A program made the translations under genes and the position numbers. Under the pieces are notes generated by a model. The model made no database searches and was not told the DNA's origin. It saw nothing but the letters and a program-made list of their open reading frames with translations. From Rhodospirillales bacterium (GTDB lineage Bacteria > Pseudomonadota > Alphaproteobacteria > Rhodospirillales > JAPHRK01), in contig JAPHRK010000033.1 of assembly GCA_026196105.1 (NCBI GenBank), forward strand, positions 124,001 to 188,000: a stretch of 64,000 bases of DNA, in the 5' to 3' direction. Shown one piece after another: positions 14,319 through 54,255 of the stretch. Position 1 is the first letter of the stretch, and each line of letters begins with the position of its first letter.

Positions 14319-15824
14319 TTACTTGTTTTTAGTCTCAGAGCCTGCTGCGGTCTCAAAATTTGTAAGATCCATCAAAGCTATGGGAACTGCGGGGTAATTT
14401 GCTGCGGCCCAACTCATTAAAGTCACGCTCAGAACAACCAAGGCTATGGCCGTGAATTTCATTTTCAGAGATTGTATTACTTTGTTTTTGGGATTCAATT
14501 GCGTTGTATGAGCCATTGCGGGGGTACCTACAACAGGTGTTGTCATCCCTGATTGGTAATAACAGGCTTCACCGATACCACTACGCTTTGCATGATACAT
14601 AGCAATATCTGCCCGACCTAAAAGAGTTTCTTGGTCTGTGCCGTCTTTGGGGTATACCGAAATGCCGATACTTACGCCTATCTGGGTGAGTTTTCCCGAC
14701 AGCATGAAGGGTTCAGCCACAGTTTCAATTATCTTTTTTGCGACCAAAGATGCGCTGTCTTGGTCATTAATTTCTGAAACAATGACAGCAAACTCATCTC
14801 CTCCTAAACGGGCCACAGTATCCGAGTCACGGACAGATTTTTTAAGACGCAAGGCAACTTCTTTTAAGAGGGTATCGCCGATCGCATGACCACGGGTGTC
14901 GTTGATCTCTTTGAAGCGATCCAGATCTAGGAAGAAGACAGCGAATTTTTGTTGGCTCCGCTTGGCTTGTTTGCTTGTGGTGTTTAGGCGATCAAAGAAC
15001 AAGGTGCGGTTGGGGAGTTCTGTTAGAGAGTCATAGCTTGCCTGGCGAATAATCTCTTCTTCAAAAAGCTTGCTTCTGGTGATGTCGCGGAAGATTGCTA
15101 GGTAATGAGTAATGCTTCCTTTGGTCGCTTTGATGCACGACATGGAAAGCCAGACCGGGAAGGTTTCCCCATTTTTGCGCTGGTACCAGACTTCGCCTTG
15201 CCAATTGCCTTGGGTGTTTACTTCTTTCCAGAAATTTTCAAAGAAATCGATATCTTGGCAACCGGATTCAAGAAAATCAGGTCTGACCCCAAGAATTTCT
15301 TTAGAAGGAAAGCCCGTTATCTGACAAAAGGCATTATTTACCATTTTTATATGGTGATGCTTATCTGTCAACATGATGGCATCTGTTTCTGAATTAAACA
15401 ACGATTGAGCAATCATTGAAAATTCTTTAGTTTTACCTATTTCGTTCAACTTGCTTTTAAGAGCAATTTCATGATTTAGGGCATCGCAAATTTCTGTCGT
15501 TTGTGAACGGGGGACAACATTATGGACCCCTTGTTTTATCAAGCGAACAGCCATTGCTGCATCTAGATTATCATCAACAACAAGGAGAGGGGTGTCTACA
15601 TGGAGGTCGTTTAAAATATCGAGAGCTTTTTTGACAGGAAGAGCTTCTGACTCTTCAACAATAACGGCATCCCAATTTTGCAACCCTAAAGCAGAACTGT
15701 ATTGGGTTTCATCTTCAACGATCTGGAGAGAAGGCGCAAAACCTCTGGCACGCAACTCAACAGTGAGTGCGTCTACATGTTCCGGCATAATGCCAGAGAT
15801 TAAAATATTTCTTCTAGTCGCCAC
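14319..15824 (-). CDS. PAS-GGDEF diguanylate cyclase with degenerate receiver and C-terminal helix
   Basis: A 501-residue protein predicted to make cyclic di-GMP. Residues 6-120 look like a receiver fold, but the phosphoacceptor position is Glu57 (NWDAVIVEES) and the conserved Lys is missing, so it is probably not phosphorylated. A PAS domain (about 138-255) follows, then GGDEF (260-425) with an intact GGDEF motif at 341-345 and an RxxD inhibitory site (Arg332-Asp335) exactly five residues before it. A single hydrophobic helix (about 457-475) near the C-terminus may anchor it to the membrane, an unusual position. It stands upstream of the candidate small RNA. Confidence 0.9.
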   Translation of the reverse strand: MATRRNILISGIMPEHVDALTVELRARGFAPSLQIVEDETQYSSALGLQNWDAVIVEESEALPVKKALDILNDLHVDTPLLVVDDNLDAAMAVRLIKQGVHNVVPRSQTTEICDALNHEIALKSKLNEIGKTKEFSMIAQSLFNSETDAIMLTDKHHHIKMVNNAFCQITGFPSKEILGVRPDFLESGCQDIDFFENFWKEVNTQGNWQGEVWYQRKNGETFPVWLSMSCIKATKGSITHYLAIFRDITRSKLFEEEIIRQASYDSLTELPNRTLFFDRLNTTSKQAKRSQQKFAVFFLDLDRFKEINDTRGHAIGDTLLKEVALRLKKSVRDSDTVARLGGDEFAVIVSEINDQDSASLVAKKIIETVAEPFMLSGKLTQIGVSIGISVYPKDGTDQETLLGRADIAMYHAKRSGIGEACYYQSGMTTPVVGTPAMAHTTQLNPKNKVIQSLKMKFTAIALVVLSVTLMSWAAANYPAVPIALMDLTNFETAAGSETKNK

Positions 15825-15980
15825 GGCACTGCAACTCCCCTGTGCCTGTTTAGAAGTGTTATAATTACATTTTTATGGAAAGTCTACCCGTAAAGAGTTT
15901 AAAGTGAGGGTTTTAACAGAAAATTTACGTTTATGGCGGGTGCTTTGGGAGAAAAGGTCTTGAACAGGGATATATGACTA

Positions 15981-17129
15981 TTATATGGCCCGTTTAATGG
16001 AGAGGGTTGTAACGTCATCTGCAATCTCTGCCTGACCAGCAAAATCTTTCACCAGTTGCTGGACTCGGTCGCAAATTTCTTGTGCCGAGGCCCCGTGTTG
16101 ACCCTCCAAGAACTCGACTAGGCGCTCTTCGGTAAGCTGATTTCGTTGTTCATCCATGGCTTCGCTGACCCCATCAGTAAAGAAGAAAACTGAATCCCCT
16201 GGCTCAATTTGAACCTCAGATTTCTCGTAAGGCATTCCTTTCTCTACCCCTAAGACGATCCCTTCACCCCCTTCTAAGGGCGTGGATTTTCCGGTTTTGT
16301 GACGGGTGATTAATGGAGGGTGGTGTCCTCCATTTGCATAGCTTAGGGTCCAGGTTTCCATGTCTAAGGTGCAGTAAAAAACGGTCACGAACATGTTGGT
16401 GATGTCGTGGCGACAGAGGAGGTCGTTTGCTTGAAAAAGGCTAGCTGCAGGGTCTCTACCATGGGTTGCTGCTGCTTGAATGAGGGTCCGGGCGACAGCC
16501 ATGAAAAATGCCGCAGGAATACCTTTACCTGCCACATCAGCAATTACCATTCCGATCTTGGTTGGTTCGACAAAAAAAACATCATAAAAGTCACCGCTCA
16601 TCTCTTTTGCAGAGCGAATATCTGCAGCAATTTCTAAGTTCTCAAATTCAGGAAAAATTGAGGGCAGAATGCGCATTTGAATGTCGCTGGCGATATCGAC
16701 TTCTCGGCGAATAGCTGAAAGTTGGGCCTCAGTTCGCCAAGCTTTGCGCCGCCGCTCGCAATCTTTATAAACTCTACCGATCGTACTAATCAGGTCAGCA
16801 GGAGCGACAGGCCGTGTTAAAAAATCTGCGGCTCCATTGTTCATAGCTTCTCGAATGTGAGGGATATCATCCCCTTTGGTTAAGGCGACTCTGGGGATAC
16901 GAACTTTGCGGCCACTTAATTTGTGAAAGAGCTCAAGGCCATGTAATTCTTCTTTGTCGATAGCAACAATCGCCAAATCGAGGTCAGGTTCATCACGTAG
17001 TATTTCTACGGCTTCTTCGTTGGATTGCGCAAAAATGAATTGGTAATTCTCATCCTTAAGTCTTTCCGCTTGCTGTTTGCACTCAGAGATGAATTGATCA
17101 TCGGTATCGACTATAAGGGTGACTGGCAT
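15981..17129 (-). CDS. RsbU/SpoIIE-type PP2C phosphatase with N-terminal receiver
   Basis: A 382-residue two-domain protein. Residues 1-122 form a receiver-like domain in which the acceptor Asp is replaced (Ala56) and the conserved Lys is Arg106, so classical phosphorylation is doubtful. A coiled linker (125-150) leads to a PP2C/SpoIIE phosphatase with metal-binding motifs MSGDFYD (178-184), ADVAGKG (197-203), FTDG (317-320) and ADDVT (370-374). It should dephosphorylate an anti-sigma factor antagonist in a partner-switching cascade; no such partner is in the window. It lies just upstream of the diguanylate cyclase on the same strand with a 156-base gap. Confidence 0.9.
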   Translation of the reverse strand: MPVTLIVDTDDQFISECKQQAERLKDENYQFIFAQSNEEAVEILRDEPDLDLAIVAIDKEELHGLELFHKLSGRKVRIPRVALTKGDDIPHIREAMNNGAADFLTRPVAPADLISTIGRVYKDCERRRKAWRTEAQLSAIRREVDIASDIQMRILPSIFPEFENLEIAADIRSAKEMSGDFYDVFFVEPTKIGMVIADVAGKGIPAAFFMAVARTLIQAAATHGRDPAASLFQANDLLCRHDITNMFVTVFYCTLDMETWTLSYANGGHHPPLITRHKTGKSTPLEGGEGIVLGVEKGMPYEKSEVQIEPGDSVFFFTDGVSEAMDEQRNQLTEERLVEFLEGQHGASAQEICDRVQQLVKDFAGQAEIADDVTTLSIKRAI

Positions 17130-19073: not shown

Positions 19074-21335
19074 GTGACTAAGCCCCTCTCACCAAAACCA
19101 TCACGGTCACCAATATCCATACAAATGTGGACACGATTTTCTGCGATTCTTGTAATCCTTGGGTTACTTTCAATCGGTTCGCAAATGCTTACTGAATGGC
19201 TAATTACTGCCAACGAAAACAGTAATGCCATTGTGAATATCAGTGGTCGCCAAAGGATGCTTTCGCAACGGATAACCTTATTGAATATCAAGTTAAGTCA
19301 AGCTCCTGATGAGATTAGTTACCATGCTCTTCAAAGACAGCTAACTGATGACATCAATTTGATGGAAGCTTCCCATAAAATCTTAACCAAAGGTGACAAA
19401 GGCCTTAATATGCCTTCTGATATGCCTCCAGACATATCTGCTTTATATTATGGGCCAAAAAGCTTTGTTGATCGGGATGTGCAACGGTTCATAAAATTTG
19501 CGCGTGCTGCCGCTAAAATCAAATACGAACAGCAAACCCCAGATAGTGAAAATATTCAGCGAGTGTTCAGGATGTCGCGGGCAAGTCTACTTGCTGATTT
19601 GGATAATGTCGTCAGGCAATATCAAATTGAAGGAGAGGCGCGGGTACAGGAGTTGAAATCTCTTGGTTTCGCTTCAGTGGTTGTTTTTATTTCGGCTTTA
19701 ATCGCTTTGGCGACAAGTGTATTTAAGCCCCTTGTCGCTCGTGTCCAAAAAGAGCTTGCTGAGAAAGAGAATACCCAACGTCTCTTAGCTGCTAGTGAGC
19801 GCCGCCAGCGAACCATTGTTGAATCAGCTTTGGACGGGGTGATCACCATTAATAAAGAGGGACGCGTGGTTGAGTTCAACCCCTCAGCCCTTGCCACCTT
19901 TGGCTATGATGACTTAAGTGAAGTTGAAGGGAAGCGGCTAGAAAAGCTGATTATTCCCCATGATGTTCAGCATAAGCATATTGACGGTATGGCCCGATTT
20001 TTAGCGGGTGGGAAAAGCGTCATCTTAGGGAAAAGGATTGAAGTCGAAGGAGAGCGTCGTGATGGCACCATTGTTCCCATTGAGCTTACGGTAACAAGTT
20101 TCCGAATTGCGGGAGAGCAATATTTCACAGCTTTCCTTCGTGATTTAACCGATAAAAAAAGTGCGGATGCTGAAAAAAAGATACTTGAAGAGCGCCTCCA
20201 GCAAAGCCAGAAAATGGAAACTATGGGGACCCTGGCAGGGGGTATTGCCCATGATTTCAATAATATTCTCACGCCGATTGTGGGGTATCTGCAATTGCTA
20301 TTACGTAAAGCTGGCGATGACCAAGATTTAAAAACCTCTTTAAACCGTATTCTTAAAGCCGCGAATAAAGCCACTGATTTGGTCGGGCAGATTTTGACAT
20401 TTAGCCGGCAAGCTTCCTTTGAAAAGAAGCCTATTAGCATTTCTCCCATCTTAAAAGAAACGATGAGGCTTCTTCAGGCAACAACGCCGAGCTCTATAAA
20501 TTTTGTTCAGAAGATTGAAGATGACGGCCCCCCTATTTTGGCGGACCCTTCTAGGATTCAGCAAGTGGTCATGAATCTTTGTACCAACGCGGCACATGCC
20601 GTTGAGGATGCAAAAGGTACGATTACAGTAGAGCTAGAGACAATTACCTTTGATGAGGAACAAGCGAAACTATATCACAATTTGGACCCAGGTGTTCATG
20701 TGAAACTTGTCGTTTCGGATACTGGAAAAGGGATGGACGAGGAAACTCAAGTGAAGATTTTCGATCCTTTTTTCACGACCAAGCGCCACGCGGGTGGTAC
20801 AGGCTTAGGGCTTGCAACCTGCCATGGGATTGTTACAGAAATGCGCGGTGAAATATTAGTTGAGAGTAAGCTAGGCGAAGGAACTACCTTTATTATTTAT
20901 TTCCCAACAACTGAATTTGCAGAAGAAAGTTTTAACACTGAAGGAGCCGCCGACCTTGCAGGAACGGGAACTGTTTTGCTGGTGGATGATGTTGAAGATA
21001 ACGTTGTTCTCATTAAGGAAATGCTCGATACCTTAGGCTACGGAGCAATAGGTTTTCATAGTAGTGCGGAAGCTTTGCAGTACTTTAAAAACAATCCCTA
21101 TAAAGTAGATGTCGTCCTGACGGATCAGGAAATGCCAGAAATGACGGGAGACATTCTTGCACAAGCGGTAAAGGAAATTCGCCCAGAAATTCCCATTGTA
21201 TTGATGACTGGTTTTAGTGAGAAAATTTCAGGTAAAGCACCGGAAGATCAGGGGTTGTCAGATATTATCCAAAAACCCCTCACTATTGAGAGCTTAGGCA
21301 AGTCGATCAAAAGTGCTTTTCATCAAGCCGCTTGA
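19074..21335 (+). CDS. Hybrid sensor histidine kinase with P-box sensor, PAS and receiver
   Basis: A 753-residue kinase starting with GTG. TM1 is at about 22-42, TM2 at 198-218. The periplasmic domain starts with NISGRQRMLSQR (residues 55-66), the PilJ/NarX-type N-terminal motif (P-box-like, the nitrate-binding region in NarX). Then come a coiled coil, PAS (about 242-362), HisKA with His393 (GGIAHDFNNILTP, the class used by many PAS-kinases), HATPase with GTGLGLAT, and a receiver (about 632-750) with its Asp in VVLTDQEMPE. A second kinase with the same P-box is at 51583-54255. It overlaps the rhodanese gene tail-to-tail by 13 bases. Confidence 0.9.
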   Translation: MTKPLSPKPSRSPISIQMWTRFSAILVILGLLSIGSQMLTEWLITANENSNAIVNISGRQRMLSQRITLLNIKLSQAPDEISYHALQRQLTDDINLMEASHKILTKGDKGLNMPSDMPPDISALYYGPKSFVDRDVQRFIKFARAAAKIKYEQQTPDSENIQRVFRMSRASLLADLDNVVRQYQIEGEARVQELKSLGFASVVVFISALIALATSVFKPLVARVQKELAEKENTQRLLAASERRQRTIVESALDGVITINKEGRVVEFNPSALATFGYDDLSEVEGKRLEKLIIPHDVQHKHIDGMARFLAGGKSVILGKRIEVEGERRDGTIVPIELTVTSFRIAGEQYFTAFLRDLTDKKSADAEKKILEERLQQSQKMETMGTLAGGIAHDFNNILTPIVGYLQLLLRKAGDDQDLKTSLNRILKAANKATDLVGQILTFSRQASFEKKPISISPILKETMRLLQATTPSSINFVQKIEDDGPPILADPSRIQQVVMNLCTNAAHAVEDAKGTITVELETITFDEEQAKLYHNLDPGVHVKLVVSDTGKGMDEETQVKIFDPFFTTKRHAGGTGLGLATCHGIVTEMRGEILVESKLGEGTTFIIYFPTTEFAEESFNTEGAADLAGTGTVLLVDDVEDNVVLIKEMLDTLGYGAIGFHSSAEALQYFKNNPYKVDVVLTDQEMPEMTGDILAQAVKEIRPEIPIVLMTGFSEKISGKAPEDQGLSDIIQKPLTIESLGKSIKSAFHQAA

Positions 21336-41610: not shown

Positions 41611-43995
41611 TTGAAGCGGGCAACAATTTATATCGCTGCCTATTGCTTGATTGTTGCTCTCTCAATTTTTTCATTGAGCCAGTATACGGCCTTTACCCGA
41701 GAGGTGGAAAACAAGCGGGTTGATGAGTATGCCCGTGTTATGTCCAACTACCTGTGGACAATGAATAAGGATAGTGCCGATGACTTTTTGTTTCTTGTCG
41801 TCAATGGGGACCCTTTTAGCAAAATCAAAATTACCCACAGTGATGATACTCTTTTTGTTGATAGCTCCTTCCTCCATGAAAAGCGGCGATGGGGATTGAG
41901 GATAGCCCCTCGCAAAGTGGCGGTACCCATCCACCAAGAAAATGAGGTCATTGGGCATTTTAGTGCAGAGATAAAACAAGATCCGACAAGTTATCTTATT
42001 ATTGGATTGCTCGATATTCTCATGGGGGGCAGCCTCTTCTTCTATTACGGCTACACTAGAAAACGAAAAGAATTCGAAAACCTGTCTCAACTGGCGACAA
42101 CTGTTCTGCAACATGCAGCAGAAGGCATTATGGTTGTTGATGTTGATGGTAAAATTGAAGCTGTAAATCCGGCTTTTAGTAGAATTACAGGCTATCAGCC
42201 CTCCGATGTTATTGGGTTTGATACAAGCTTTAGGCGATCCAATCTCCATGATGGGGACTTCTATAAAGAAATTTTTTCTACGCTTGAATCTATTGGGCTG
42301 TGGGAAGGGGAGGTTTGGCGCAGACGGAAAAATGGAGAAGTTTATCCCGAATGGCTCTCAGTTACTGCGGTTAAAAATGACGTAGGAAAAGTTATTAGAA
42401 GTATTAGCCTTTTCCGCGATATTACCGAACAAAAAACTGCTGAGGCTGAACTCATTAAAGTTAGAAACCGTTTAGCTGAAGCTGAGCAAATTGCTCAGAT
42501 TGGAAGCTGGGAGTGGAAGGTAAATGAAAATAGCTTTTGGTGGTCCGATGAGGTCTATAGAATTTTTGGTCTCAACCCCAATCATCATGAAGCCTCTCTA
42601 GAGAATTTTAATGAAATTATTCACCCCGATGATGCAGGTGAATTTGTTTGGGAGAAGCCAGGGCAAGCTGAAAACATCAGTGATCGTAAGTTTAACTGCA
42701 GGATCATTCGTCCGGATGGGGAGTTAAGGCATATCCAGCTTGTGGCTGATTTTCAACACAATGCTGACGGCAAGTTGATCCGTCTCATTGGCACAGCTCA
42801 TGATATAACTGAAGGAAAGAAAACTGAAGAAATATTGAGGAGTGCCAAGGAAAAAGCCGAGCGAGCTGATATGGCAAAGTCCAGGTTCTTGGCAGCAGCT
42901 AGTCATGATTTGCGCCAACCTTTGCAGGCTCTCAATCTCTTGGTTGCTGCCCTTGACCAACTGGTTAAGCTTGAAGGTAATGATCTGAATGGGCGTCAAG
43001 CAGGATTGATTGGTAAAATTGAAAGATCTTTAGAATCTCTGTCTGATCTTCTTAATGCCCTCCTAGATATTTCCAGGCTTGATGCGGGAACTCTTATCCC
43101 TGAAATGGAAAACTTCCCGATCTCCGAACTTTTGGAATGGGTCGATGAAACCTATAGACCTAAGGCGCAAAATAAAGGGCTCGAGTTTGTCGTAATCTCC
43201 TCATCTCTCACGGTTTTAAGTGATCCTCAGCTTTTGCGCCAAGTGGTTGGTAATTTGGTCTCCAATGCAATCCGCTATACCAAAGAAGGCAAAGTTTTAA
43301 TTGGGTGTCGACAACGAGGAAAAAGAATTACGATTGAAGTTTACGATACTGGCGAAGGTATTCCTCGTGACAAAGTGAAGGTCATTTTCCAAGAATTTCA
43401 TCAGCTAGGGAATGCTGCTCGCCGTAGAGAAAAAGGGCTTGGGCTTGGGTTGGCAATCGTTGATCGAATTACAACGTTGATGGGTCACAAAGTTAATGTT
43501 CATTCAAGAATTGACCAAGGGTCGTGTTTTTCAATTGATGTAAATGTTGGTGAAAAAAATCAAGAAAAACCTGAACAACCCCTTGGGAAGATAGTGGCTA
43601 AACCTTCCTTGGAAGGAGTTGCTTTGGTAATTGATGATGACCCTGCTGTTCTTGACAGCATGTCTCTCTTACTATCGCAATGGGGTATGACAGTCATTGC
43701 AGCTCTATCTTCTTCAGAAGCACTGAAACAGTGCCTTGAAGCTTCGGAGGTGCCAATAATTATTTTGGCCGATTATCGTTTGCAGGAACCTCGAACAGGG
43801 GCTCAGGCAATAACTCTGATTAATGACGAACTAAAAGCAAATATCCCAGGGGTAATTATTACAGGGGATACAGGGGCAGACCGTATCCAAGAAGCAACGG
43901 CGAGTGGCTTTAGGCTTCTTCACAAACCTCTACAACCGGCAAATCTTAAAACTGTTTTAATCGAGATATTGTTTGATGAATCAACGAACTGGTGA
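41611..43995 (+). CDS. Hybrid sensor histidine kinase with two PAS domains and receiver
   Basis: A 794-residue kinase. TM1 (about 7-24) and TM2 (about 127-147) flank a small periplasmic sensor of about 100 residues. Two PAS/PAC units (160-275 and 290-405) follow, then HisKA with His432 (AASHDLRQPLQAL, the HDLRQP class), HATPase (NLVSNAIRYT, GLGLGLAI), and a receiver (about 670-790) with Asp in ILADYRLQEP. The TTG start has AGGAGG before it. The VPIEG-repeat gene lies 129 bases downstream on the same strand, so the two may be linked. No response regulator is near. Confidence 0.9.
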   Translation: MKRATIYIAAYCLIVALSIFSLSQYTAFTREVENKRVDEYARVMSNYLWTMNKDSADDFLFLVVNGDPFSKIKITHSDDTLFVDSSFLHEKRRWGLRIAPRKVAVPIHQENEVIGHFSAEIKQDPTSYLIIGLLDILMGGSLFFYYGYTRKRKEFENLSQLATTVLQHAAEGIMVVDVDGKIEAVNPAFSRITGYQPSDVIGFDTSFRRSNLHDGDFYKEIFSTLESIGLWEGEVWRRRKNGEVYPEWLSVTAVKNDVGKVIRSISLFRDITEQKTAEAELIKVRNRLAEAEQIAQIGSWEWKVNENSFWWSDEVYRIFGLNPNHHEASLENFNEIIHPDDAGEFVWEKPGQAENISDRKFNCRIIRPDGELRHIQLVADFQHNADGKLIRLIGTAHDITEGKKTEEILRSAKEKAERADMAKSRFLAAASHDLRQPLQALNLLVAALDQLVKLEGNDLNGRQAGLIGKIERSLESLSDLLNALLDISRLDAGTLIPEMENFPISELLEWVDETYRPKAQNKGLEFVVISSSLTVLSDPQLLRQVVGNLVSNAIRYTKEGKVLIGCRQRGKRITIEVYDTGEGIPRDKVKVIFQEFHQLGNAARRREKGLGLGLAIVDRITTLMGHKVNVHSRIDQGSCFSIDVNVGEKNQEKPEQPLGKIVAKPSLEGVALVIDDDPAVLDSMSLLLSQWGMTVIAALSSSEALKQCLEASEVPIIILADYRLQEPRTGAQAITLINDELKANIPGVIITGDTGADRIQEATASGFRLLHKPLQPANLKTVLIEILFDESTNW

Positions 43996-44124
43996 GGGGT
44001 TTAAAAGAAAAATTGCTTGAAATAGGGGCTTTATAAGCCCCTTATAGAAAAATCAGTTCAAAGCCTCTATATGAATTGCTACAGTTTATAACGCGATAAA
44101 ATAAAAAGAGATAACTTTTAAGTC

Positions 44125-46530
44125 ATGGCAACTTTCGACTTTTCAAAGCACAAAGTGTTGATGGTAGATAGGGATTCGAAAACCTTTGAACGGGCGAAAG
44201 CTATTTATGAACTAAAAGGGTTGTCTGATTTTAAGGGTGTGACCTCGGCAAATGCTGCGATGGGAGCTATTAAAAATTTCGCTCCCAGCCTTGCTTTCAT
44301 CAATGCCGACCCCGGTGCGGGGGGGCATGAATTGATTCAAATGTTGCGCGACTTTCCTGATGGGCGGTTTAATGATCTTCCTATTGTGGTAATGCTTACT
44401 AAGGTTGAAACGCGTCAGCTCAAAGACCTTTGCCGAATTGGTATCGAAGGAGCATTGCGAAAACCGATTGACCCAGTTCGGTTATTACGTCTCACACGAC
44501 TTACCATTCGTCGCCCACAGCGGTTTATTAGTATCCGCAACTATTTTGGCCCCAACCGCCGTACACGCTCTCAAGCGCCTGCGGATGGCTACGATCGACG
44601 GATTAAGCATGATGGGCCAGAAGAATTCGTTCCTCGTCAGAAGAAGCAAGACAACATACGCATGGTCCCCATTGAGCATCACGGTATCAATAAAGATGGC
44701 ATAACCATGGTGCCTATTGTCGGTGTGGGTATTAATGACAAAGAAATAACCATGGTGCCGATTGAGGGGCACCAAATTGATAAAGATGGTGTCACTTGGG
44801 TTCCAGTAGAAGGATTCGGTGGAAAAGATGGCATTACGATGGTGCCAATTGAAGGACGTGAAGGGCGCAATGGAGATATTTCCTTCGCACCCATAGAAGG
44901 ATTTGGGATGCGAGATGACCTCACGTTTGTTCCTATTGAAGGGAATGGAAATGCGGGTGAAGGCATTACCATGATTCCTATCAAAGGATATGGGGGGAAT
45001 GGGAATGAGCCTGATTATAAATATGCAGATCAAAAGGAATTTGCGGCTGATTTAGAAGTAACCCCTGTTGGCACCTTGAGTGATGAAGGGGAGCTTTCCA
45101 GCGAGGCGATCCAATCTTTCAAGGATAAAGGAGAAATTGCCTTTGACCAATTAGGGCCAGGTGATGATGGCAGCTCACAACCTGACTTTGAGGCAAATAT
45201 GGGTGGTAGTGTCTTTGACCAATCGTTTGAAGACGCGATGAGGGAAGCTAAAGGAATGGCAGGTGACGGAGCCGTTTCTCATGATGATTTGGTTGGTGGC
45301 CAGAAAAACGGCGAAATGGAGATTGTTAACTCGGGTGATCTCCTAACTGGCGCTTCAGGCCCAATGAAAAAAGACGGGGCTAAACCTTCGAGACGACCTC
45401 CTCCATCTATTAATCTTGATCTCGATATTGATGATGATGAACCTGCTACAAAACCTGATGACGTTGTCCCTGTCCACGAAAAACCTCCAATAACCGAGTT
45501 GATGGTTGATAGCAAAGGAATGGTCGAGCTTGGCTCGCTTGAAGAGCTTGTTGCTGAGCCTGAGTTGGCTAAGGTAGAGGGGAAAGAACCGCCTGCTTCA
45601 GGTGGGTTTGATGTTGCAGCAGCTTTAAATGCTGCACAAAATGCCAAAGGTAATCTGACCAAAAAGAAACGCGAAAAAGAAAAAGCAGCGCGTATTGCCG
45701 AAGGTAAAGCTAAAGCCGAAGAAGCTTTGAAAAAAGTTGATGAGAAATTAGAGGAGCCAACTTCGAAGGCCAAGTCAAAGAGAAAGCCAAAAGCGAAAAA
45801 AGAAACTACGGCTACTAAAGCGAAACCTACTGCCTCTAAGCCGACAAAAAAGAAAGCACCTGCTAAGAAGGCAAAAGCTAAAGAAGTTAAGCCAGAAGTG
45901 CTGGAAGAAATTAAGCCGGAACCAAAAAGACGAGGACCAAAAACAGCTAGTGCACCGGAAGTTCAAATAGCTCTCGGGGCCCATAAGCTTTGGGTTAATA
46001 CGGGTGGTAAAGAAGGAGCTCAACTCACTTTGCCAAGGGCGGATATGCGGGGCCACAATTTAGCGGAATCTGATTTTACCCAGGTGAGAATCCCAGGTGG
46101 GAATTTTAAAGGAACGGATTGTACCGAAACAGTATTCCGTAAAGCTTTTCTCAGTCGTTCAGATTTTACAGGTGCACAACTTAGCAAATGTGATTTTGCC
46201 GTTTCGAGGTTAAAGCAGGTAAACCTTAAAGATGCCAAGCTCAAAATGGCCAATTTACATGGTGCTGATTTGGCTCGTGCAAATCTATCCGGAGCAAGAC
46301 TTATGCGCTGTGATATGAGCGCGGCTAATTTGGATGGCACTAACTTAATAGGAGCCAATCTGAGTTCTGTAAAAGGATTGCTTCCTGATCAACTGCTTCG
46401 GGCTAGAATAGACAGTACCACCAAGCTCCCCTATCACCTCAGGAGCAATCAAAAACTAGAAGCAGCTACCAAAGTAATTGCCAATAAGAAAAAAACAACA
46501 AGACGGACTCGTAAACCTAAAGCGAAGTAG
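44125..46530 (+). CDS. Receiver-like/VPIEG-repeat/pentapeptide-repeat mosaic protein
   Basis: An 801-residue protein of unusual architecture. Residues 1-145 form a receiver of the alphaproteobacterial family that ends in YFGPNRR; the acceptor Asp is replaced (Asn60) so it is likely a pseudo-receiver. Residues 178-288 hold eight tandem repeats of 14-15 residues with consensus (I/L/V)T(M/F/W)VPIEG; the prolines are at 182, 197, 212, 227, 241, 256, 270 and 285. A long acidic then K/A/P-rich linker (about 300-610) follows. Residues 632-750 form a pentapeptide-repeat beta-helix (A(D/N)LxxA type). The tail is again basic. Cytoplasmic, no signal peptide. I know no described protein with this layout; function is not predictable. 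Confidence 0.8.
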   Translation: MATFDFSKHKVLMVDRDSKTFERAKAIYELKGLSDFKGVTSANAAMGAIKNFAPSLAFINADPGAGGHELIQMLRDFPDGRFNDLPIVVMLTKVETRQLKDLCRIGIEGALRKPIDPVRLLRLTRLTIRRPQRFISIRNYFGPNRRTRSQAPADGYDRRIKHDGPEEFVPRQKKQDNIRMVPIEHHGINKDGITMVPIVGVGINDKEITMVPIEGHQIDKDGVTWVPVEGFGGKDGITMVPIEGREGRNGDISFAPIEGFGMRDDLTFVPIEGNGNAGEGITMIPIKGYGGNGNEPDYKYADQKEFAADLEVTPVGTLSDEGELSSEAIQSFKDKGEIAFDQLGPGDDGSSQPDFEANMGGSVFDQSFEDAMREAKGMAGDGAVSHDDLVGGQKNGEMEIVNSGDLLTGASGPMKKDGAKPSRRPPPSINLDLDIDDDEPATKPDDVVPVHEKPPITELMVDSKGMVELGSLEELVAEPELAKVEGKEPPASGGFDVAAALNAAQNAKGNLTKKKREKEKAARIAEGKAKAEEALKKVDEKLEEPTSKAKSKRKPKAKKETTATKAKPTASKPTKKKAPAKKAKAKEVKPEVLEEIKPEPKRRGPKTASAPEVQIALGAHKLWVNTGGKEGAQLTLPRADMRGHNLAESDFTQVRIPGGNFKGTDCTETVFRKAFLSRSDFTGAQLSKCDFAVSRLKQVNLKDAKLKMANLHGADLARANLSGARLMRCDMSAANLDGTNLIGANLSSVKGLLPDQLLRARIDSTTKLPYHLRSNQKLEAATKVIANKKKTTRRTRKPKAK

Positions 46531-51582: not shown

Positions 51583-54255
51583 CTAAGATAGCTTGGGGGG
51601 GGCTTTTGTTCCCCCTTTTTGCCGATGAGTGGCACTGTCTCCTAAAACATCATCTAAGGTGGCTAAAACCTGTTTGACGTTGATAGGCTTTGACAAGTAG
51701 GCGCGGAAGCCGGCCTCCATACCTTTTTCAATATCCGTCTTCATAACGGCAGCGCTCACTGCAACGACAGGGATATTTTTTGTCTCATCCATCTCTTTAA
51801 GAACTTTAAGAGCGCTTACTCCATCCATACCAGGGAGGTTAATATCCATTAAAACGAGGTCTGGGCGAAGTTGCTTTGCCAGCTCGATCCCTGCCTCAGC
51901 TGTTTCAGCGCAAATAAGTTTTACCCCAGCCATACGCCCTATCATCATGGTCATAAGTTGGAGGTTGGCTGGGTTGTCTTCAACGTAAAGAATTTTGCCT
52001 ATTGGATCATGGCTCACAACTTCGGCGGCCATATCGCGTATTTCAGAAGCTGTTGCTTCATGTTCGCTGGAAAATGATAAGGGGATATCGACCCAGAAGG
52101 TTGATCCCTTTCCTTTTTCACTAATAAAACCGACTTTCCCCTTCATGGCCTCTACTAGGCGTTTGGTAATTGTGAGGCCAATGCCGGTTCCTTCAATTTC
52201 GAGGCTTTCAGCACCTAAACGATTGAAGGGTTCAAAAAGTTGGTTCTGCTTTTCAAGAGCCACACCTCGTCCATTATCTTTGACGGAAAGGCGAACATAG
52301 CTTTTACCTAAGCTCTCCCATTGAACCCAAACTGTTCCATTATCGGCATTATATTTAATAGCATTCGACATCAAGTTAATGATAACTTGGCGTAATCGAG
52401 TATAGTCCCCTTTGGCGGTGAGGTCTGCCTCGCCCATGGTTTTAATAGTGATGTTCTTGCGCTTGGCGATGCCGCTAATGAGGGTTATACAATCTGAAAT
52501 CAAGCTATCAACGATGACGTTGTCTAGAGATAGGCTTATTGATCCGGCTTCAATTTTTGAAAGATCAAGGATATCGTCAATAAGTTCCTTCAAAAGACGA
52601 CCGCCGCCAACAATCTGCTCAATACAAGTTTGTTGTTCTTCGCTGAGGAACTCATCGCTATCCATTTGAAGCATCTGACCGAAGCCAAGGATTGCGTTCA
52701 AAGGGGTGCGTAATTCATGACTCATGGAGGAAAGAAATTCAGATTTAGCTTTGTTAGCTTTCTCGGCAGTAACAATAGCTTTGCGCAGATCGGCTTCAAC
52801 TTTTTTGCGATCCGTTACATCTTGAACGCTGCCCATAAGATTTATAGGTTTACCCTTTTTACTGAACTCCGATTTCATCAACAGATTGCCGACACGGGGG
52901 CTGTTACTTGATGGGAAAAACTCAATTTCTAGAGCATCACTATAGCCAGGAGTCTTCAAGGATTTGCGGAATTCCTCTTTGACAAGCTCTTTATCGGTAG
53001 GGCTAATAAGATTAAGAATGGTTTTAAGGCTTAACTCAAAAGTCCCTTTTTTGAGATTAAAAATTCGGCACATCTCATCAGACCAAGTGACTTCATTGGT
53101 TATCAAATCCCAATTCCAACTTCCAATACGGGATAATCTCTGAGCTTCGTCTAGGCTATGTTCACTAACTCTAAGTTTAGCCTCGGTTTTAACAGAGCGG
53201 GTTACGTCTTTACCGGTCCCCCTATACCCTAAAAACCGACCATCTGAGTCATAGATTGGTTTGCCGTTAATATCGATGTGGTGGGTATACCCTTCCTTAT
53301 CTTTCACGTCGTATTGAAAATTTTCAAAGGGTTTTCTGTTTTCTAAATCTTGTCGGTGGGCTGTCCAGTGGTCGCTATCTGTATCAACCACAGTTGGGTC
53401 TAAACGTTCCCATCTGGTATGTCCGATTAAGCTTTCTTTCTCGATATGGAAGAGGTCAAAAAATCGTTCTGAAACTCTGGTAAAACGAAGCTCTTCATCC
53501 ATTTCCCAAACCCAATCAGAGGCGGTATCTGTGAAATCTCGAAAACGGGCGTTGGATTTTTGCAAGGAAATCTGAGTTTCTTCAAGTTGTGCGATATGTG
53601 CTTTGAGGCGCTTTATGGCTGGAGCAAAAACACCGACTGCTGATAAGAAGAGGAGTAATAAAGTTGCTGCAAGGGCGCTATCTTCTAAGTGGGATAAAGC
53701 GACGAGTTTCTTCTCGCTTTCCCTTTGATATTGGGCGACAACATCATCAAGTAAAGTTAAGAACCCGGTTCCCCCAAGGTTGTTGAAAGCGGATTGGTGG
53801 TTGTGGTCATCTTTTCTGGGGTTGGCGCCAGGGGGATGCAAGGTGAGCAAAGCTTTGGCATCTTTGATATATGCTTCAACTCGGGCATTGACGTTAAATT
53901 TTTCGCCAAAATACATGGCCTTGATGGTTTCAGAAGGAGGGGAAAATCCCCAAACTTTATTTCCTGAAACAAGGGCGTGATGGGAACGGGCCATTTTGTC
54001 AATGGTTGCGGTATATTCCTGACGTATCCAAGCTCGTTCACGGCTTTCTTTTAAACGGTCAAGTTCTAAGCCTAGGAGCATGATGCGTTGGGAAAGCATA
54101 CGCTGACGACCGGCAATATTAATTTCAGCGGCATCAGTTTTTTGTTTATCAATGAATTGTTTGAAAACAAGATTGCTGGCAACCGCCAGACTAGCGAGTC
54201 CAATAAGAACAGCTATATATCGGAAAGTCAGACCTTTAACAAAGGTTACACCCAT
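51583..54255 (-). CDS. Hybrid sensor histidine kinase with P-box sensor, PAS domains and receiver
   Basis: An 890-residue kinase. TM1 (about 10-30) is followed by INIAGRQRMLSQR (residues 45-57), the PilJ/NarX-type P-box motif, then a helical periplasmic domain to TM2 (about 203-223). Two PAS domains (about 240-365 and 375-490), HisKA with His513 ([20 protein letters not shown]), HATPase, and a receiver (about 740-870) with Asp in [12 protein letters not shown] follow. It shares the P-box with 19074-21335 and its kinase-receiver core with 5449-7545 and 59837-62260. Strong AGAGG lies before the ATG. Monocistronic. Confidence 0.92.
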   Translation of the reverse strand: MGVTFVKGLTFRYIAVLIGLASLAVASNLVFKQFIDKQKTDAAEINIAGRQRMLSQRIMLLGLELDRLKESRERAWIRQEYTATIDKMARSHHALVSGNKVWGFSPPSETIKAMYFGEKFNVNARVEAYIKDAKALLTLHPPGANPRKDDHNHQSAFNNLGGTGFLTLLDDVVAQYQRESEKKLVALSHLEDSALAATLLLLFLSAVGVFAPAIKRLKAHIAQLEETQISLQKSNARFRDFTDTASDWVWEMDEELRFTRVSERFFDLFHIEKESLIGHTRWERLDPTVVDTDSDHWTAHRQDLENRKPFENFQYDVKDKEGYTHHIDINGKPIYDSDGRFLGYRGTGKDVTRSVKTEAKLRVSEHSLDEAQRLSRIGSWNWDLITNEVTWSDEMCRIFNLKKGTFELSLKTILNLISPTDKELVKEEFRKSLKTPGYSDALEIEFFPSSNSPRVGNLLMKSEFSKKGKPINLMGSVQDVTDRKKVEADLRKAIVTAEKANKAKSEFLSSMSHELRTPLNAILGFGQMLQMDSDEFLSEEQQTCIEQIVGGGRLLKELIDDILDLSKIEAGSISLSLDNVIVDSLISDCITLISGIAKRKNITIKTMGEADLTAKGDYTRLRQVIINLMSNAIKYNADNGTVWVQWESLGKSYVRLSVKDNGRGVALEKQNQLFEPFNRLGAESLEIEGTGIGLTITKRLVEAMKGKVGFISEKGKGSTFWVDIPLSFSSEHEATASEIRDMAAEVVSHDPIGKILYVEDNPANLQLMTMMIGRMAGVKLICAETAEAGIELAKQLRPDLVLMDINLPGMDGVSALKVLKEMDETKNIPVVAVSAAVMKTDIEKGMEAGFRAYLSKPINVKQVLATLDDVLGDSATHRQKGGTKAPPKLS
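51598..51620 (+). terminator. Terminator of the FKBP-rhodanese gene inside the 3' end of a convergent gene
   Basis: GGGGG-N8-CCCCC followed by TTTTT on the plus strand. It lies within the last 40 bases of the kinase coding region on the other strand. Confidence 0.5.

Follow-up and report, generated by a model that had tools for sequence, protein, structure and literature searches.

An aspartate-less, Cle-like receiver joined to a VPIEG repeat array and a pentapeptide-repeat rod: a candidate flagellar-motor regulator in a Rhodospirillales bacterium

What might be the role of a protein that begins with a receiver domain devoid of its acceptor aspartate, continues through eight tandem VPIEG repeats and carries a pentapeptide-repeat helix towards its end? 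This question is raised by an ATG-initiated, 801-aa open reading frame in a 64,000-nucleotide stretch of a Rhodospirillales contig (JAPHRK010000033.1; hereafter the window). The initial annotation had delimited this reading frame and named a receiver with a replaced acceptor, the repeats, a long charged linker and a pentapeptide beta-helix, and the sequence, Pfam and AF2 modelling bore out the coordinates and every one of these parts (Table 1). Its term "mosaic protein" turned out to be too weak, since the receiver-linker-pentapeptide architecture is conserved order-wide, being found in many families of the order and in three copies in this genome, with only the VPIEG array being unique; an arginine-rich region (ARR) and the linkage of the relatives' genes to motAB had, moreover, been missed.

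Table 1. Location of the gene, its parts and related features (window coordinates, unless a locus is named)
Feature	Position	Strand	Basis
Whole gene, 801 aa: aspartate-less receiver, arginine-rich region, VPIEG array, disordered linker, pentapeptide rod	44125..46530	+	ORF, Pfam, AF2
Aspartate-less receiver, residues 1-127 (acceptor Asp = N60; second Mg-binding acid = R16)	44125..44505	+	Pfam PF00072, CheY alignment, AF2
Cle-type ARR, residues 128-163: YFGPNRR (140-146) and degenerate ADGYDRR (153-159)	44506..44613	+	ARR profile; motif from PMC5677366
Eight VPIEG units, residues 176-293, core consensus D-G-I-T-M-V-P-I-E-G	44650..45003	+	Periodicity, codon analysis
Disordered linker, residues 297-605: acidic part, charged helix ~516-540, Lys/Ala/Pro-rich part ~545-590	45013..45939	+	AF2 pLDDT, charges
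Capping helix and pentapeptide-repeat beta-helix, residues 610-758, net positive	45952..46398	+	PF00805, AF2, Foldseek, charge
Conserved C-terminal segment (QLLRARIDSTTKLP) and basic tail, residues 759-801	46399..46527	+	Family alignment, AF2
PAS-PAS-HisKA-receiver hybrid kinase, upstream and adjacent	41611..43995	+	Pfam; neighbourhood comparison
Two own paralogs	L058:5040-6302 and L059:8194-9270		
Terasakiella-type linkers with repeated aromatic-acidic motifs	L060:8653-10242, L061:8952-10535, L111:4001-5485		

The N-terminal part of the protein matched the Pfam Response_reg domain (PF00072, 1.7e-7) and was confidently modelled by AF2 from an alignment with 15 family members (pLDDT ~90), the structural matches of this head in Foldseek being CheY/OmpR-type receivers. 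Alignment with CheY placed an asparagine at the phospho-acceptor position, and among the 37 aligned family members, 36 had another residue (G, A, E, N, Q or S) in place of the acceptor aspartate, with the second acidic Mg-binding residue mostly lost as well. To judge from these alignments, the receiver of the window protein is an aspartate-less pseudo-receiver whose phosphorylation site has been lost. The hybrid kinase gene that had been noted upstream, on the same strand, ends 129 bp before the gene; an 8-bp perfect hairpin (AGGGGCTT-TAT-AAGCCCCT, near 44024-44042) lies between the two, so that their co-transcription is not established. A conserved kinase partner, which the initial annotation had raised as a possibility, was not found in the compared neighbourhoods of family members, and the acceptor aspartate that this kinase would phosphorylate is absent from the window protein. 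The remaining neighbours of the gene are clpB and housekeeping genes. Elsewhere in the window, two adjoining genes (14319-17129, minus strand) encode proteins of 501 and 382 aa with receiver-like N-termini, and two kinase-cluster proteins (51583-54255, minus strand, and 19074-21335, plus strand) have in common an N-terminal PilJ-like stretch (NxSGRQRMLSQR), the first of them being a PilJ-PAS-HisKA-receiver hybrid according to Pfam.

In Caulobacter, a tandem [YF]XGP[DE][RK]R motif that binds c-di-GMP defines the Cle proteins, which bind the motor switch protein FliM and whose activation requires c-di-GMP, not phosphorylation (PMC5677366). An ARR-like motif is found directly after the receiver of the window protein. 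Using a profile built from 28 single-domain receiver-ARR proteins of the order, we obtained a score of 26.0 bits for this region, against 11.6 bits for the best of 1969 scored shuffles, while the two paralogs of the same genome scored about 0; hence, among the three own copies, only the window protein keeps the ARR. Across the other family members the scores were either excellent (33-38 bits), weak or nil, and the Thalassospira members displayed a single degenerate copy (13-17 bits), which means that c-di-GMP binding cannot be general in the family. No strict match to the tandem Cle motif is present in the window protein, the first copy having Asn instead of Asp/Glu and the second being degenerate. 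Nor is the alpha4 Arg, required by Cle proteins for polar localisation, kept: this stretch reads DLCRIG in the window protein versus EAR[DE]xG in the single-domain relatives used as reference, and EACxxG or EAVDAG in other family members. Taken as sequence comparisons, these data make descent of the receiver-pentapeptide protein from Cle-like receivers well supported and the predicted binding of c-di-GMP by the window protein plausible; full Cle membership is not claimed for it. As for the single-domain receiver-ARR (Cle-type) proteins of the order (L126-L155), matches were detected in 48 of 50 genomes, with up to 20 such proteins per genome, a number well above the five known in Caulobacter.

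The eight repeats of about 15 residues, with regularly spaced prolines, had been described precisely and as nameless, and both statements stood. The prolines occur at residues 182, 197, 212, 227, 241, 256, 270 and 285 (spacing 15, 15, 15, 14, 15, 14 and 15), and the eight units, of 14-15 residues each, have the core D-G-I-T-[MFW]-V-P-I-E-G, in which Pro is invariant; the lag-15 self-match of 35 compares with a maximum of 24 among 20,000 shuffles. Core residue identity between units is 56% versus 34% at third codon positions, codons for the same residue are identical in 52 of 148 instances (58 expected from codon usage alone), unit-to-unit comparison by the Nei-Gojobori method yielded a saturated pS of 0.77 and a pN of 0.28 in the core, and TRF detected no DNA-level tandem repeat within the array. 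The third-position identity, codon counts, pS and TRF result together rule out that the array arose by recent tandem duplication. Because silent sites are saturated and pN is low, the units diverged long ago and purifying selection held the peptide; by this codon evidence the VPIEG array is an old, selectively maintained peptide.

Relatives of the array were sought in the genome itself and in samples of 317 genomes from the order, 385 from the class and 398 from the phylum. Nothing rose above noise in any of them; in the class- and phylum-level sets the best other matches (E ~0.01 per genome) are at chance level over hundreds of genomes. The window's taxonomic family is represented in these samples by this genome alone. 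Phages, plasmids and viral contigs gave no match. For residues 173-302 no described repeat family was recovered, the best Pfam match (E 0.005) falling below the cut-off and the best PDB match having an E of 0.04, and NCBIfam and PHROGs returned none. A phage or plasmid origin of the array and its membership in a known repeat family were rejected on these grounds; the initial annotation had left room for a described repeat family or an assembly from a phage or toxin protein, and neither was encountered. Modelled alone from its single sequence, the array reached an AF2 pLDDT of 36, a value that neither shows nor excludes a fold.

In the AF2 model made with the 15 family members, the receiver and the rod are confident, residues 151-605 mostly stay below a pLDDT of 50, and the linker mostly lies between 30 and 50. 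The rod (pLDDT 92-98) matched PF00805 (8.9e-23), its Foldseek matches are pentapeptide and beta-solenoid structures (5di5, rmsd 1.4 over 151 columns), and its net charge is +6 to +9, so that it is confidently modelled as a pentapeptide-repeat beta-helix. It was not assigned to the Qnr and MfpA families, with scores of 29.6 against a cut-off of 240 and 35 against a cut-off of 360. A significant motif array in the linker of every family member is unsupported, as only four linkers stand out: that of the window protein (z ~22), one Pro/Ala-rich linker of family f4 (z 6) and two of the Terasakiella type (z ~5). Linkers of this last, neighbouring clade harbor short aromatic-acidic motifs, e.g. SYALSEVPEEKKKRQDYALTDEEGAQKKSRDYDLAPEE, spaced ~15-16 residues apart, which differ from VPIEG and occupy the same place in the protein; their occurrence suggests that the linker may generally be a site for docking motifs.

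The same genome encodes two further proteins of the receiver-pentapeptide kind, in which the linker is short and the array absent. In a tree of receiver and rod, the three own copies group together (support 92/92), beside Terasakiella (83/67), and the window copy shows the shortest branch of the three inparalogs (0.37 vs 0.87 and 0.87); several other branches of this tree are long and its wider topology is unsure. Both paralogs evolve faster than the window copy, and the ARR and the greater part of the linker are gone from them.

With regard to gene neighbourhood, motA-motB directly precede the receiver-rod gene, on the same strand, in each of the 23 loci of Thalassospira or Terasakiella type in the named collection; MotA and MotB domains were confirmed at one Terasakiella-type locus, and one of the 23 has the receiver-rod gene broken into two frames. 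By coordinates, this order recurs in six genomes of f16 and 28 of f29; in all 34 genomes of these two families having both, the gene lies less than 4 kb from motA, one of them showing a 3.6 kb gap. These counts cover many species but two lineages, and hence are not independent events. In two f4 genomes, the receiver-rod gene adjoins a MinD/ParA-type ATPase gene and flhA. No flagellar linkage was seen at the gene's neighbourhood in many other lineages, and the window gene itself is not beside motAB, motA-motB being followed here by an acetyltransferase gene; FliM and two stator pairs are encoded in this genome. In an f21 genome (L083:6219-9048), the genes after motA-motB encode a hemerythrin-like protein and, in convergent orientation, a single-domain receiver, a further case of a receiver close to the stator genes.

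We tentatively favour a reading in which the window protein is a phosphorylation-independent, probably c-di-GMP-responsive flagellar-motor regulator derived from Cle-type CheY proteins, with the VPIEG array as a multivalent docking tether. c-di-GMP bound at the ARR, instead of phosphate, would set how the head touches the motor (at FliM or on the stator side), the rod would form a second docking surface, docking elsewhere than the head, and the eight VPIEG units would serve as repeated short linear motifs conferring avidity for a multi-copy partner, such as the motor ring. Pointing in this direction are (i) the acceptor aspartate replaced in 36 of 37 members, (ii) the ARR (26.0 bits vs 11.6 for the best shuffle) kept by only this own copy, (iii) the c-di-GMP-dependent, phosphorylation-independent binding of Cle proteins to the motor (PMC5677366), (iv) the motAB linkage (23 of 23 loci and 34 genomes) and flhA nearby in another family, (v) the position of the window copy as the slowest-evolving inparalog, beside the Terasakiella clade, and (vi) the FliM and two stator pairs of the genome, together with the pS and pN values of the array. 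Weighing against it are the location of the window gene away from motAB and the many lineages devoid of flagellar linkage, the association of the strongest motAB linkage (Thalassospira) with a degenerate one-copy ARR, the Asn in the first ARR copy, the degenerate second copy and the alpha4 Arg that is not kept, and an array with neither a confident fold (pLDDT 36) nor a known partner. Both the flagellar role and the c-di-GMP binding are what we infer for the window protein. We think it somewhat unlikely that the claim extends as far as a new class of flagellar-motor regulators switched by c-di-GMP alone, combining a Cle-derived unphosphorylatable receiver, a lineage-specific multivalent array and a rod, made with the stator proteins in relatives, and with VPIEG as a new motif for docking to a motor component present in many copies.

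Possible, if doubtful, is a scaffold of the FrzS or ChePep type, localised at the motor or pole and working without c-di-GMP. Here the receiver would serve purely for docking to proteins, the linker would be a spacer bearing binding motifs and the rod a structural foot, with the ARR left over as a remnant. Such a scaffold would suit the aspartate-less receivers of almost all members, an ARR that is degenerate or lost in several proteins, those of the motAB-linked Thalassospira among them, in which receiver, linker and rod persist, and the example of FrzS, which has an atypical Asp-less receiver and is polar in motility (PMC1974792); a remnant, however, should be lost, and a recognisable ARR is kept in the window copy and several other families. 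Flagellar neighbours are absent here and in several other families, and clpB, the kinase and housekeeping genes surround the window copy, as would be expected if the regulator or scaffold had nothing to do with flagella in this genome and the motAB linkage were a recruitment peculiar to the lineages of Terasakiella and Thalassospira. We consider this decidedly unlikely. Against it, the copy in the window has diverged least among the own copies, and its clade stands, albeit with modest support (83/67), beside the motAB-linked Terasakiella. A recent, neutral and functionless expansion would fit an array found so far in only one of the sampled genomes, but is contradicted by the codon evidence (synonymous sites saturated, non-synonymous ones held) and by the absence of a DNA repeat, and is very improbable. 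As to a DNA mimic that would protect gyrase, as Qnr and MfpA do, the common beta-helix fold class is set against a rod that is not strongly acidic (net +6 to +9), model scores far under the cut-offs, and a receiver, array and flagellar linkage that do not fit, making this explanation extremely improbable.

The switching of pseudo-receivers is an open question (PMC12632262), to which the family offers a testable answer, namely that the phosphorylation site has been lost from receivers bearing a tail of the c-di-GMP-binding kind; members encoded with motAB occur in the culturable Terasakiella and Thalassospira. The fusion of a Cle-type receiver to a pentapeptide rod is apparently undescribed, as full-text searches of the openly available literature turned up no receiver-pentapeptide protein that has an ARR or is encoded in a motAB operon, and the word "pentapeptide" is absent from the 2025 review of pseudo-receivers (PMC12632262). 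The VPIEG array, for its part, is an old repeat kept by selection, of which no relative is known.

HetL, MfpA and Qnr have the rod fold in common with the window protein and differ from it in having neither receiver nor array, the window rod, furthermore, not being acidic; sharing the pentapeptide fold with them says nothing about the partner. ChePep of Helicobacter and Campylobacter, situated at the flagellar pole, resembles the window protein in combining a receiver with a long repeated region. It is not known to have a pentapeptide rod or to occur outside Campylobacterota. The chePep mutant shows hyper-reversal (PMC9665402). FrzS of Myxococcus (PMC1974792) and the pseudo-receivers at large (PMC12632262) resemble the window family in a receiver fold without phosphorylation site and in a link to motility, and differ in that an ARR is the possible input here. 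Like the Cle proteins (CleA-E of Caulobacter; PMC5677366), the window protein has a CheY-like receiver followed at once by an ARR of the form [YF]xGPx[RK]R, and the flagellar context and function without phosphorylation of the Cle proteins are both proposed for it. It departs from them in the lost acceptor aspartate, in the alpha4 Arg, which is not kept, and in ~640 extra residues, which include the repeat array and the pentapeptide rod, the extra domains given for Cle proteins being only cNMP-binding, hemerythrin and adenylosuccinate-synthetase domains (PMC5677366).
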